42,657 nucleotides of DNA. Source: Candidatus Methylomirabilis tolerans. Lineage in GTDB: Bacteria > Methylomirabilota > Methylomirabilia > Methylomirabilales > Methylomirabilaceae. The notes under the pieces are model-generated. The model was not told where the DNA came from, did no database searches, and worked only from the letters and a program-made list of their open reading frames with translations. Positions 1-11,969 of this stretch are shown one piece after another. Within the stretch, counting starts at the first letter, position 1. Every line of letters starts with the position of its first letter. Location of the stretch: positions 1-42,657 of the forward strand of contig JAIOIU010000032.1 of the NCBI GenBank assembly GCA_019912425.1, in the 5' to 3' direction. The position numbers were made by a program, and so were the translations under genes.

Positions 1-138
1 GCGCAAGGTATGTCTCCGGTCTCGTTCTTCAAGAAGGCGCAAGGCTTCGCGTATTACTTCGCTTGCGGAACCATAAAGCCCGCTCTCTACTTTGTTTTTC
101 ACCAGTTTTTCAAGTTGTGGCGTCAGTGAAATGTTCAT
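1..138 (-). CDS. parD: ParD/CopG-type antitoxin, N-terminal part (cut by window edge)
   Basis: Reading the minus strand from the ATG at 138-136 gives 46 residues beginning MNISLTPQLEKLVKNKVESG and continuing with a ribbon-helix-helix pattern (GSASEVIREALRLLEERD). This is the standard start of ParD antitoxins, which bind their own operator through the beta strand and neutralise a ParE-type RNase/gyrase toxin with the C-terminus. A clear GGAGG lies at 153-149, ten bases before the ATG. The C-terminus and any parE partner lie beyond base 1, so whether the pair is complete cannot be seen. It is divergent from the regulator gene at 453. Family recognition is firm; activity is not known. Confidence 0.85.
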   Translation of the reverse strand, partial: MNISLTPQLEKLVKNKVESGLYGSASEVIREALRLLEERDRRHTLR

Positions 139-241
139 TATATTATTTCCTCCTTTGACCTCCATGATAACATAGAATATCAATCCTTGTTATCCGAAAG
201 AGAAACATGAAAAGCGCTCCGCTCCCGGAGAACCATGGGCA

Positions 242-273
242 CGAAACCGACCGCTTCGCGGAGGCTGAGCCCC
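242..273. repeat. 32-base direct repeat, left copy
   Basis: Bases 242-273 recur at 1548-1579 with three mismatches; the first 20 bases (CGAAACCGACCGCTTCGCGG) are identical. The core contains a small hairpin, CCGC-TTC-GCGG. The two copies bracket the AT-rich regulator gene, with the left one in the spacer between parD and that gene. Confidence 0.75.
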
Positions 274-381
274 ACCTTAATCCTCCACTCTTATCTTAAT
301 ATCTTATAGTCTCAGTGGCATAGCCTTGATAGTCGTATACCTATAAAACAATACTAAAATTAGTTAGTTATGTGGTAACGG

Positions 382-410
382 TTGACAAATAAAATGTGAA
401 GGTTTACAAT
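382..410 (+). promoter_or_regulatory. Sigma-70-type promoter of the wHTH-ATPase-STAS gene
   Basis: TTGACA (382-387) and TACAAT (405-410) are separated by 17 bases, close to the sigma-70 consensus, and stand 43 bases before the ATG at 453. The motif GGTTGACAAAT at 380-390 is repeated as GGTTGTCAAAT at 423-433, each with a TTG-N-CAA core, so a repressor could bind over the -35 and again downstream of the start of transcription. The rest of the 314-base spacer 139-452 is AT-rich and holds only the parD ribosome site, the 32-base repeat and this promoter. Confidence 0.6.
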
Positions 411-452
411 TGCAAAAGTTAAGGTTGTCAAATAGCACAGTTGAGGTTTTCC

Positions 453-1499
453 ATGACTAAATTAAGAAAACGCGGTGAAAAAATTAGAGAGTTTATTCTT
501 GAAAATGTGGGGAGAGATCCCAAAGATATAGTAAATATTACTTGCGATACATTTACCGTTTCTCGCCAGGCGGTCAATAAACATATCCGGCAACTAATTG
601 AGCAAAAGGCTTTAACCCGAGAGGGAAAAGCTAAAAGTGTGCGCTATTTTTTGCATCCGCAATCGGAGTGGAATGCAGCATTCTCTCTTGTTGACAATCG
701 TGCCGAAGATGTCGTCTGGAGAAATGAAATAAAACAACAGTTAGGTCAGTTGCCGGATAATGCACTTGCGATTTGGCATTATGGCTTTTCAGAGATGTTT
801 AATAATGTTATCGATCACTCCGAAGGGACTACTGTCGAAATTAATATCAAGAAAACAGCATATTCAGCAGAAATGTACATACGGGACAATGGAATCGGAA
901 TTTTTACGAAAATTAAAAATGCCATGGGTCTTCTTGATGAACGTCACGCGGTTGTTGAACTGACTAAGGGGAAACTAACGACTGACCCAACTCACCATAC
1001 GGGGGAGGGAATCTTTTTTAGTTCGCGTATGTTCGATGAATATAGCATTTTATCGGGTGAGGTTTTTCTCTCACATACATATGAGAAGGACGAGGATTGG
1101 ATATTACAGACTAAAAAATACCAAAATGGTACGTTCATAGCTATGAAATTAAAAAATAATACGGCGCGAACGACCCAAGAGATATTCAATAAATTTTCTG
1201 ATGATGATTACGGTTTTACAAAAACAGTTGTACCCGTTCGTTTGGCGCAATATGGTAATGAACAATTAATTTCCAGGTCACAGGCGAAACGGCTATTAAC
1301 AAGAATTGAGCGTTTTAAAACTGTATTGTTCGATTTCAGGGATGTTGAATCGATAGGTCAAGCTTTTGCGGATGAAGTATTTCGAGTTTTTGCAAGGCAA
1401 CATCCGAATATGGAGATACTGCCGATACACGCCAATGATGCTGTCTTGCACATGATTAGACGCGTTGGATCTAGCACAGAAGATAATATCTTCAACTGA
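453..1499 (+). CDS. Winged-helix / GHKL ATPase / STAS-like (DUF4325) regulator
   Basis: A 348-residue protein. Residues about 5-65 form a winged helix (FTVSRQAVNKHIRQLIEQKAL, then a basic wing). Residues about 85-235 carry Bergerat-fold ATPase boxes: N box EMFNNVIDHS (~115-124), G1 box DNGIGI (145-150) and G2 box HTGEGIFF (182-189). Residues about 245-340 look like the STAS-like domain DUF4325 (TVLFDFRDVESIGQAFADEVFRVF). The ATG at 453 is preferred over the in-frame TTG at 441 because TGAGG at 442-446 sits seven bases before it. The domains recall anti-sigma kinase/antagonist partner switching, but here sensor, kinase-like and DNA-binding parts share one chain. The gene is clearly more AT-rich than its neighbours and lies between direct repeats, suggesting transfer. 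Target and ligand are unknown. Confidence 0.8.
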   Translation: MTKLRKRGEKIREFILENVGRDPKDIVNITCDTFTVSRQAVNKHIRQLIEQKALTREGKAKSVRYFLHPQSEWNAAFSLVDNRAEDVVWRNEIKQQLGQLPDNALAIWHYGFSEMFNNVIDHSEGTTVEINIKKTAYSAEMYIRDNGIGIFTKIKNAMGLLDERHAVVELTKGKLTTDPTHHTGEGIFFSSRMFDEYSILSGEVFLSHTYEKDEDWILQTKKYQNGTFIAMKLKNNTARTTQEIFNKFSDDDYGFTKTVVPVRLAQYGNEQLISRSQAKRLLTRIERFKTVLFDFRDVESIGQAFADEVFRVFARQHPNMEILPIHANDAVLHMIRRVGSSTEDNIFN

Positions 1500-1547
1500 T
1501 GCTCAAAAGCCCCAGAAATAACCTATCCTTCTCGCTAGCCAGCGGCT

Positions 1548-1579
1548 CGAAACCGACCGCTTCGCGGCGGCTCAACCCC
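1548..1579. repeat. 32-base direct repeat, right copy
   Basis: Second copy of the 242-273 repeat, 29 of 32 bases identical, starting 48 bases after the regulator's stop codon and ending 11 bases before the end of the MfnF-like gene. Same orientation as the left copy. Confidence 0.75.
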
Positions 1580-1590
1580 GCATTGAGCAC

Positions 1591-2625
1591 CTATCTACGA
1601 GAGAGCGTCTCCCCCAAGAGGTAGGCAGCCGACGCGCATGGGCTCAATGCTACGGAGCTGCTCTCGGTCAATGCCGGAGGGTCACATGTCGTAAGGTTCA
1701 GCCGCCTTGCGCAGGCCTCCCCCAGGAAGGCGCCGATCCCCACCGGCACTACAGGGAGACGGAGGCCGTTCTCGATCCTGGAGAGCACCTGAAGCATCCC
1801 CTCTGTGATCTGTTGGATCTGGTGCTCGGCGATATAGGCCGCCATCGCGTGAAGCTCTCCGGTCGTGAGATGCTGACTGTCTTCGCAGGCCACCCGGGCC
1901 AGGCGGCGGAGCGCTCCCTCCCTTGTTTTCTCACGACCGTCAGGAGTCGCGCAGGTGTAGTCCTCCGACGCGAGCCTGCCTAATATCAGATAGACGTCCG
2001 CCGAGATGGCGAAGTATTCAGCCGCGATCCGGCAGATCGCTCCTCGCACAGGAAGCTGGGAGACGATAGCGGCGACAGGCGTGCGGAGGGCGCCCGTATA
2101 GATCAGTTCTCCGCGCATCAATCGCTCGATGTCCCGCTTACCCTGTGCAGCAATCTTTCCGTCCAGGATCGGGATCAGATCAGTAGTGGTGCTGCCGATA
2201 TCGATGAGCAGACAATCCGGTTGCCGGTTCGCCAATGCCCGCGCCTCAGCGATCCAATTCGTTGCCGCAAGCGCCAGGAGGTCGGCCTCACGTCCGTCCA
2301 GGCGAACGAGTCTCCCCTCAAGATCGACGGCATACAGCGGGATTGCAGGGACCGCCTCTCTCACCGCGTCGATGATGGATGCCACGCCTGCGGCCCTGTC
2401 GTCGAACGCATCGCACAGCTCCCCGGTCATGGTTACCACCATCGCATCGGCTGGTCCAAGGTCGCTATAGATCTCCCGCAAGAGTGGATGGAGGCCGCCG
2501 CTGTTGTTCCACAGCTCGAAATAGCGGCGAACTGTACACCCGCTTTCGGCGCGCCCGTCAGTGAACAGAAGGCGGGCGGCCTTCACGTTTGCGCCGCCGA
2601 TATCCCATCCGATCACCCGGATCAT
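1591..2625 (-). CDS. mfnF: MfnF-like hydantoinase/ASKHA-fold protein of H4MPT-linked C1 pathway
   Basis: 344 residues of the hydantoinase-A-like family linked to the H4MPT/methanofuran C1 pathway. In methanogens MfnF joins the aminomethylfuran unit to glutamyl-tyramine during methanofuran synthesis; bacterial homologues sit in formaldehyde-oxidation gene clusters. The ASKHA nucleotide-binding elements are visible: phosphate-1 GWDIGGANVKA (6-16), phosphate-2 IDIGSTTTD (141-149) and a glycine-rich PVGIGAFLG near 296-304. Its ATG overlaps the stop of the upstream ATP-grasp gene in an ATGA, so the two are translationally coupled. The family call is strong; the exact reaction in this bacterium is inferred from the archaeal enzyme. 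Confidence 0.82.
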   Translation of the reverse strand: MIRVIGWDIGGANVKAARLLFTDGRAESGCTVRRYFELWNNSGGLHPLLREIYSDLGPADAMVVTMTGELCDAFDDRAAGVASIIDAVREAVPAIPLYAVDLEGRLVRLDGREADLLALAATNWIAEARALANRQPDCLLIDIGSTTTDLIPILDGKIAAQGKRDIERLMRGELIYTGALRTPVAAIVSQLPVRGAICRIAAEYFAISADVYLILGRLASEDYTCATPDGREKTREGALRRLARVACEDSQHLTTGELHAMAAYIAEHQIQQITEGMLQVLSRIENGLRLPVVPVGIGAFLGEACARRLNLTTCDPPALTESSSVALSPCASAAYLLGETLSRR

Positions 2626-3671
2626 TGCCGGCTCCCCACTGGTCTCACGTGGCAGGAACGTGTGGTAAACCGCGTCGACCCGACGATCTGGATCGCGGCA
2701 GGATCCGGAAGCGTGCCTGCCACCGCGTCAAGAATCAGGGCAGCCGGATTCTGCCGAAGGACCTTTCGGACCCCGACATACGAGGTTGTGAGGCGGGGGT
2801 TGACCTCGATGACCACCGCGTCGTGGTCGGTCAGAACCAGGTCGATCCCGACATACCCCTTCAGGCCTGGAATCGCCTGCACGACCTCCTCGACCCGACG
2901 GAACGCCAGGGCGCGGAGTGGGTGCTCAAACGGGATACGACCTCCGTGATACCTGAGCCTGCTCCGTCCTCTGATCTCCTGGAGGTTGAGGGTCAGGGGG
3001 AGACATCGACTGCCGTCAGTGAGGAGCGAGACGCTGACGGCAACGCCGTCGATGTAGGCTTGCGCAAGGAGTGTCGCATCGAGCGCTTTCTGCCTGGCGG
3101 CCGCGGTTATCCGCTCTAATTCCGCTTGCTGCCTCGCGACAAACACGCTGTGACATCCCACCCCGTCGATCGGCTTTACCACCACGGGGTAGCCGATCTG
3201 GCGGCCTATCGACGCCGGGTCATCAGCGGGCCGAAGGCGGAGCGTTCTGGGGGTGGGGATGTCGTGCGCCTTCAACAGTTGGTACGTCAGCGTCTTATCG
3301 CCGGCGGCTTTGATCCCGACAGTGCTGGAACCCAACACTAACTTGCCGCAGGCCTCGACCATCCCTGTGATCGATTCGAGCAGGCCGCCTGTCTCCGGAG
3401 CAACCAGGAATGCGGCATCCGCTTCCTCGACCAACTGCGCGAAGCATTGATAGTAGTTATTCCTGCTGTCAACAACCTGAAGTCCTGGACGAGCAGGGAA
3501 CTGAGGAAGGTACCCCCGATCGATCTGTACTGAAAGCTGGTGCTCCTTCAGGTCAAGCAGATCGGTAAGAAGCGCCTCAAGCATCATTCGTCCTTCTGCC
3601 AGCAGCGCTTCCGTGACCGAGCTTCCGTCCAGCCCTCCGGCTGTGATAGATTCATGCACAACGATCTTCAT
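2622..3671 (-). CDS. mfnD: MfnD-like ATP-grasp ligase
   Basis: 349-residue ATP-grasp protein resembling the tyramine/tyrosine-glutamate ligases that build the side chain of methanofuran. ATP-grasp elements: GDKTLTYQLLKAHDIPTP (124-141), the nucleotide lysine in PVVVKPIDGVG (162-172) and the metal-binding VIEVNPRLTTSYVG (287-300). The frame stays open upstream to 3911, but that extension runs through the G/C-homopolymer spacer and into the divergent HisA-like gene, so the ATG at 3671 (MKIVVHESITAGG) is taken as the start; no strong ribosome site was found. It overlaps the MfnF-like gene by four bases and is divergent from the HisA-like gene. Substrate is inferred from context. Confidence 0.8.
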   Translation of the reverse strand: MKIVVHESITAGGLDGSSVTEALLAEGRMMLEALLTDLLDLKEHQLSVQIDRGYLPQFPARPGLQVVDSRNNYYQCFAQLVEEADAAFLVAPETGGLLESITGMVEACGKLVLGSSTVGIKAAGDKTLTYQLLKAHDIPTPRTLRLRPADDPASIGRQIGYPVVVKPIDGVGCHSVFVARQQAELERITAAARQKALDATLLAQAYIDGVAVSVSLLTDGSRCLPLTLNLQEIRGRSRLRYHGGRIPFEHPLRALAFRRVEEVVQAIPGLKGYVGIDLVLTDHDAVVIEVNPRLTTSYVGVRKVLRQNPAALILDAVAGTLPDPAAIQIVGSTRFTTRSCHVRPVGSRQ

Positions 3672-10863: not shown

Positions 10864-11247
10864 ATGTCAACAGCCAAAGAGTGCCCGGTCATTTCTGATG
10901 AGGAAGTGATGAAACGTGTGGAACAGGAACTGCCAGGGTGGTACCTGGAGGGGCGATGGATAAAGAGAAAGTTCAACACCGACGGCTGGCCAACCACTCT
11001 CATGTTGGTCAACACCATTGCCTACCTGGCCGAGGCCGCTTGGCATCATCCGGACCTGGAGGTCACATGGGGAAAGGTCTGGGTGAAGCTGAGGACTCAC
11101 GCCGCCGGTGGGATCACTGAAAAGGACTTTGCGCTCGCCAGACAGATCGAGCAGTCAGTGCTCTGGCGGCCGGGCGAGAGCTCCCCCCTTGACGGTACGC
11201 CCAACAAATGGGTCCGCGGCGGCAGCCAAGAAAAAAGTAGTGCCTAG
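10864..11247 (+). CDS. Pterin-4a-carbinolamine dehydratase family protein
   Basis: 127 residues. The active-site pattern ExxxHHPx5Wx9Hx8D is complete: E57, H61, H62, P63, W69, H79 and an Asp after GGITEK. Such proteins dehydrate 4a-hydroxytetrahydrobiopterin; bacterial relatives also occur near H4MPT genes, and catalytically altered relatives assist RuBisCO assembly. Because all catalytic histidines are kept, an enzymatic pterin role is preferred. It follows the CBB terminator, so it is transcribed separately. It is convergent with pagL, the two stops sharing a palindromic CTAG. The C-terminal 20 residues (SSPLDGTPNKWVRGGSQEK) extend beyond the usual fold. Confidence 0.85.
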   Translation: MSTAKECPVISDEEVMKRVEQELPGWYLEGRWIKRKFNTDGWPTTLMLVNTIAYLAEAAWHHPDLEVTWGKVWVKLRTHAAGGITEKDFALARQIEQSVLWRPGESSPLDGTPNKWVRGGSQEKSSA

Positions 11248-11969
11248 AAGTAATACGAGACCCCCAGTAGACCCATGACCGAATTGACGCCGACGTTGGG
11301 ACTTTCGCGGCCGGCATTCGAGACGTGATGTAAGCCCACTTGTCCCACAATAGCCAGTTCATCGGTCAAGAAGTAATTGATTCCAGGTCCGCCCAGAATG
11401 GTAAAGTTGAACTGAGTGGCAAGGTCCCGTTCGAGGTGCAGACCCCATTGGAGAATGCCAACGCCGATCTCGAAGAACGGCACCCACCGAGTACCCGTCA
11501 CGAAATTGTAGCGGAACAGGAGGCTTGCGCCCCCTCCAACCTCTGTGTCCGGGTGTGTTGTGACCATAAAGGTCGGCTGGAAGATCACCTCCAGGCTCCC
11601 GCGAACCGGGAAAGGGCCATGGACATCGGTGACTGTATAGCCGATCTGGAAGAACACCGGGACAAATTGGACATCTGGCGCCCTATTGGCAAAAATCTTG
11701 ACGGTATCGGCACCACCGGTCTTCACGCCCAGGTGCCATGTTCCAGACTGGAACCCTTCTTCCGGATGGATGGTCGATTTTGACCTCTCTTCACCTGCTG
11801 ATGGGGGGCCATCTGGGCCGGCAAAGGCGAGGGTCCGAATAGCGATCAGTTCGGTCTCTCGCCCCAGCGCGACTGCCTGTTGAGAGGTCTCAGCCCAAGC
11901 TACGGCAGGTGATGCGATTGCCAATACGGCCAGCCAGATACAAACCGGTATCCGTCTCAATCCATTCAT
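11244..11969 (-). CDS. pagL: PagL-family lipid A 3-O-deacylase (acyloxyacyl hydrolase)
   Basis: 241 residues with a signal peptide (basic MNGLRR, hydrophobic CIWLAVLAIASPAVAWA, cleavage near A26) followed by alternating strands of an outer-membrane beta-barrel ending in the aromatic SYYF. The active-site motif HVSNAG (215-220) carries the catalytic His215 and Ser217, with nearby Glu222 and PNVGVNS. PagL removes the 3-O-acyl chain of lipid A at the outer membrane, so the cell should have LPS. AAAGGAG stands about six to twelve bases before the ATG at 11969. It is the last gene of the minus-strand glyQ-to-pagL row, though a hairpin separates it from the upstream ORF. Confidence 0.82.
   Translation of the reverse strand: MNGLRRIPVCIWLAVLAIASPAVAWAETSQQAVALGRETELIAIRTLAFAGPDGPPSAGEERSKSTIHPEEGFQSGTWHLGVKTGGADTVKIFANRAPDVQFVPVFFQIGYTVTDVHGPFPVRGSLEVIFQPTFMVTTHPDTEVGGGASLLFRYNFVTGTRWVPFFEIGVGILQWGLHLERDLATQFNFTILGGPGINYFLTDELAIVGQVGLHHVSNAGRESPNVGVNSVMGLLGVSYYF

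Follow-up and report, generated by a model that had tools for sequence, protein, structure and literature searches.

A strain-variable foreign DUF4325 gene between two probable, worn attC-like sites of an integron-type array in Candidatus Methylomirabilis tolerans

Integron gene cassettes are recognised by reading frames that lie on one strand between attC sites and by cassette starts that are complementary to the box of their own site. A cluster of attC sites has been defined by two or more attCs with spacings below 4 kb, and clusters without an integrase (CALINs) are common in MAGs (PMC9668308). In the literature searched, we found no report of integrons in the Methylomirabilis group. Here, we analysed a window of 42,657 nucleotides from Candidatus Methylomirabilis tolerans, which is contig C32 from its first base and over its whole length. 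The source genome (G000) comprises 2.65 Mb in 167 contigs and was scored 99.96% complete. We consider it likely that two 32-base repeats near the start of the window are worn attC-like sites of an integron-type cassette array; the foreign DUF4325 gene between them varies in presence between strains (Table 1).

Table 1 Features of the window around the probable end of the cassette array (L071 denotes a stretch of the same-species genome G014).
Feature	Position	Strand	Evidence
ParD antitoxin gene, 5' part, cut by the contig end; neighbouring array unit	1..139	-	orthologous G014 stretch L071 19096-19404 (-) matches PF03693 ParD_antitoxin, E 5e-11
Copy 1, probable worn attC-like site; holds the 242-273 repeat, GTT box CTTAATC	215..273	+	92% identical to positions 29-87 of the 89-bp family element
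1,306-bp unit, present in G000, absent in G014	262..1567 (equivalently 242-1547)	+	empty site L071 19463
Phased iterons TTKWCAA, probable operator	about 375/380-452	+	starts at about -71, -50 and -28 from ATG; gaps 21 and 22 bp
348-aa regulator-like protein, HATPase_c_2 + DUF4325 (STAS-like)	453..1499	+	PF14213 57.7 bits (gathering cut-off 23); PF13581 27.7 bits (cut-off 27.4)
Copy 2, probable worn attC-like site at the array end; holds the 1548-1579 repeat, GTT box ATTGAGC (1580-1586)	1539..1581	+	93% identical to positions 47-89 of the family element
Array/chromosome junction	1580..1590	+	downstream flanks of the hydantoinase gene, eight array-bearing genomes
Hydantoinase/oxoprolinase-family gene bordering the array, conserved synteny anchor	1591..2625	-	PF01968 E 2e-27; in 13 of 15 genus genomes

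The sequence-only reading of this DNA had described a 32-base direct repeat with three differences and a hairpin, enclosing an AT-rich gene beside a ParD antitoxin, and all of this was confirmed. The two copies (242-273, CGAAACCGACCGCTTCGCGGAGGCTGAGCCCC; 1548-1579, CGAAACCGACCGCTTCGCGGCGGCTCAACCCC) differ at three bases, have an exact 20-mer in common and both contain the hairpin CCGC-TTC-GCGG. The GC content of the gene region is 38-41%, as compared to 50-64% in the next 6 kb, and that of the gene itself is 39%. The antitoxin gene runs off the contig, and its assignment is borne out by the orthologous G014 stretch. Assembly is made harder by attC sites that resemble one another (PMC9024848), which may explain where the window contig starts. 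The 16-base core of the repeat has two exact copies in the window and no more, and a 33-mer allowed up to three mismatches had no match in dinucleotide shuffles of the window. A search of window 1-3000 against Rfam yielded no hit. Homology to a wider family extends beyond the 32 bases in both copies. The G of the GTT box is replaced in each, by C in copy 1 and by A in copy 2, leaving neither border of the DUF4325 unit with an intact box. In addition, the unit starts with TTAATCC, and reading of positions 1440-1560 revealed no complementary GGATTAA box before copy 2. Folded as single-stranded DNA, the two window copies performed no better than shuffles (z -0.7 and -1.8).

With at most two mismatches, the 20-mer occurs at five places in the source genome, the flanks of which extend the repeat to a palindromic element of about 89 bp. 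A full-copy query at E < 1e-10 likewise gave five matches in this genome: two full copies (contigs C45 and C90), one partial copy (C38) and the window pair. The element was found in 8 of the 15 genus genomes, whereas all 80 other phylum genomes searched lacked it. Its copies are clustered a few kb apart in the same orientation, with genes between them that include ParE and ParD. When flanks were compared, 15 of 18 family copies, a count that leaves out the window pair and its G014 orthologue, ran into GTT on the 3' side, and the sequences beyond it were unrelated. As single-stranded DNA, a full copy folds at -33.9 kcal/mol (z -5.7); covariation within the family was not above that of shuffles. 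Several full copies appear to begin right behind another attC-like end and to stop at the next GTT. Those at L073 9164-9284, L088 8609-8729, L078 211-326 and L074 15882-16000 appear to begin at GTTCTCCC, and GGAGAAC in several full copies complements their own start. Several of them are possibly ORF-less mini-cassettes of about 118 bp.

In G014, the 1,306-bp unit is missing and a single repeat copy lies between two intact flanks. Identity reaches 256/261 over window 1-261 and 478 of the 493 available bases from window 1548 onward; window 2-273 is 97% identical to L071 19223-19494. One copy at an empty site is what the sequence-only reading had named as support for insertion or excision. It had set against this a repeat lying in dozens of spacers with constant gene occupancy; we found five copies in the genome, and the gene in 1 of the 15 genus genomes. 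Both of the options that it opposed, a dispersed repeat and a gene moving between two copies, hold in part. Overall that reading is supported, and what it missed is the attC-like nature of the repeats in an integron-type array. The DUF4325 unit is a single gene between two same-orientation attC-like sites, the presence of which varies between strains.

The single copy in G014 is a hybrid, with copy 1 to the left of the core and copy 2 to its right, which places the exchange point inside the shared 20-bp core (CGAAACCGACCGCTTCGCGG). This junction is positioned in the hairpin core, away from G^TT. An integrase cut at G^TT would have left copy 1 whole, unlike what is seen. Crossover or slippage between decayed sites is the simplest account of the hybrid. 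As to direction, loss in G014 would require less than gain in G000, and the data fit both. Under gain, which we hold to be possible though rather unlikely, G014 would retain the ancestral single site and the G000 lineage would have received the gene from circular or linear repeat-bearing DNA recombining through the shared core. An AT-rich, foreign gene confined to one genus genome speaks for such an event, and the hybrid copy set beside its two parental copies is equally compatible with it. However, the donor would already have to carry the genus-restricted repeat, whereas for a deletion the two direct repeats would suffice. Fold energies of the parental and hybrid sites gave no preference between gain and loss.

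The array is inserted between an amino-acid-kinase gene, on the leader side, and the hydantoinase gene. In G003, G006, G007, G008 and G010, which have no array, the kinase adjoins the hydantoinase. In G000, G014, G001, G002, G005, G011, G012 and G013, other sequence lies on the hydantoinase side and ends at TTGARY near the stop codon; the preceding base is G in six of these genomes and A in G000 and G014 (ATTGAGC). A single contig spans kinase, array and hydantoinase in G014, G001, G002, G005 and G011; in G000 the two ends are split between contig C38 (kinase) and the window (hydantoinase). Contig C147 of G014 shows a classical array: the kinase and a conserved leader are followed by reading frames that lie mostly on one strand, with canonical sites between them, for example GCCTAACCTGCCCATGCAGCCGGCTCCGCCGGCGGCTGATGGGCAATGCGTTAGGC (GCCTAAC...GTTAGGC). 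On L071, attC sites at 11839, 12543 and 14083 and family copies at 11012, 15121 and 16270 are all on the + strand; at least two attC sites on this stretch (called by hand) share an orientation and lie within less than 4 kb of each other. The start of cassette 1, TTAGGCAGC, complements its own R'' box, GCTGCCTAA, at 9/9 bases, with GCTGCCTAAC ahead of its own site; by eye, the correspondence covers 7 bases in cassette 3 and 5/6 in cassette 2. Both ParE and ParD genes lie within the array. Sites were called by hand and with our own script rather than with IntegronFinder; in its strict R''/L''/L'/R' form, the script found canonical sites in G014 and few elsewhere, and missed the repeat family. 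We read this locus as an integron cassette array with attC sites, with no integrase found nearby.

Two further observations concern the G014 array. At L071 10489-10779, a second, partial kinase gene start lies inside the array and is followed by a second leader-like stretch. The ParD stretch adjoining copy 1 occurs twice, at L071 15916-16147 and 19223-19494.

The repeats might instead be an ordinary dispersed palindrome of REP or MITE type with no integron link, between copies of which the gene moved by chance recombination. The hairpin, the non-coding nature and low copy number of the repeat, the weak covariation evidence and the array without adjoining integrase all suit this account. Yet homology of most copies stops at G^TT before unrelated sequence, the copies share one orientation with genes between them, the same array has canonical attC sites and toxin-antitoxin cassettes, and its ends are fixed. 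We judge this account improbable and retain the integron-type array.

An integron integrase scoring over the curated cut-off was found in two genus genomes, intact in G001 (C37) and interrupted in G002 (C13); no intact one was found in G000 or G014. In genomes with both array ends on one contig, no integrase lies beside the array, and none of the loci is a complete integron, which has an integrase gene adjoining the array. A same-strand frame of 1,053 aa, the end of which the intact G001 integrase (L090 5079-6158) overlaps, looked on reading like a DNA polymerase subunit. Scattered through the genus genomes are many short in-frame pieces whose match to the integrase model is confined to its C-terminal 35-65 residues (e.g., G014:C60:6104-6298, G014:C60:9474-9626, G000:C45:674-775 and G005:C1:1430515-1430712); these are either decayed integrases or something that cassettes carry.

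It is very unlikely that the unit represents a small element integrating site-specifically through the 20-bp core with a recombinase in trans: one core in the empty site and one at each end when occupied is the geometry expected of insertion, yet the unit codes for a regulator only, with no recombinase, and core copies elsewhere flank unrelated genes. The least probable account is that one of the two MAGs was misassembled. Both are fragmented, the window contig has 241 bases ahead of copy 1, and G014 carries the ParD stretch twice; against this, the 20-bp core is shorter than usual assembly word sizes and both flanks run on for hundreds of bases at 96-98% identity.

In weighing the attC-like reading, we counted for it the empty site, the genus-restricted family in one orientation, the G^TT ends, the folding of the full copy, the canonical sites in G014, ParE and ParD, the array-free genomes, the integrase in two genus genomes and the foreign gene. 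Against it we counted the broken GTT boxes, the missing GGATTAA, the weak folding of the window copies, the covariation result, the lack of an intact integrase in G000 and G014, the calling of attC sites by hand and with our own script, and the few script sites outside G014. The window repeats would then be the 3' parts (L'-R' arm and hairpin) of two attC-like sites with which a chromosomal cassette array closes at its far end. The DUF4325 gene would be the last array unit, probably captured earlier as a cassette, and the GTT boxes at both borders of the unit would have decayed after capture. We infer that the original capture was the work of an integron integrase; this step is putative because neither copy has kept the G of its GTT box and the expected self-complementary ends are missing from the unit. 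The window sites appear to have lost their activity. With the boxes decayed, presence or absence would now depend on crossover or replication slippage between the identical 20-bp cores, which would remove the gene and leave a hybrid site as in G014.

The DUF4325 gene is of foreign origin. The 14 other genus genomes lack the regulator, and homologues with 33-51% identity occur in 5 of the 80 other phylum genomes. A protein of a Deltaproteobacteria MAG is 83% identical to the regulator over its best segment. DNA similarity to this homologue is limited to 369-1483, that is, to the gene and its upstream region, and does not include the repeats. The regulator contains a GHKL-type ATPase domain with conserved ATP pocket motifs, and its N-terminal stretch is probably a winged helix, judging from the amino acid sequence. 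Neither PADLOC nor NCBIfam assigned the protein in a meaningful way, and there was no match among PDB sequences or viral contigs. An AlphaFold model from a three-sequence alignment had a pLDDT of 34 and was discarded.

Upstream of the gene, TTKWCAA iterons are phased. Phased iterons also precede the L091, L107, L108, L109 and L110 homologues, and L091 (2923-2999) has a fourth copy; at L092 the sites are unphased, and L111 has none. The motif was chosen after inspecting the data, so that the shuffle fractions overstate its significance. Phased iterons ahead of most of the DUF4325-HATPase homologues examined suggest conserved self-regulation. The regulator is likely a DNA-binding protein that controls its own gene, presumably through these iterons.

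A broader proposal, which we put forward tentatively, is that worn attC sites serve as short homology tracts for integrase-free loss (or gain) of cassettes at the array end, a second turnover route of sedentary arrays of which the same-species hybrid junction would be an instance, and that the cargo here belongs to a little-studied GHKL/STAS-like family self-controlled through phased TTKWCAA iterons. What emerges is a hypervariable integron-type array that occupies a single fixed locus in the genus Methylomirabilis, presumably of the phylum NC10. The locus also offers a same-species example in which the terminal unit of an array comes or goes at a position away from the integrase cut site, and the conserved iterons give a way into unstudied DUF4325 regulators.

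Compared with described integron cassette arrays and CALINs, this locus is alike in its fixed position, its hairpin sites in one orientation, homology stopping at G^TT, toxin-antitoxin and hypothetical genes, and strain-variable content. It differs in the decayed boxes of the terminal sites beside the DUF4325 gene, in a presence/absence junction placed within the hairpin core instead of at G^TT, and in that an integrase was not found near the array. With REP- and MITE-like palindromes it shares a dispersed, hairpin-forming, non-coding repeat; unlike them, it has ends at G^TT and a same-orientation array with genes between the copies. Finally, the window protein resembles DUF4325 STAS-like proteins with a GHKL ATPase domain, its HATPase_c_2 match being just over the cut-off. 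To this family, for which the literature searched describes no function, our analysis adds the phased iterons before most homologues tested.
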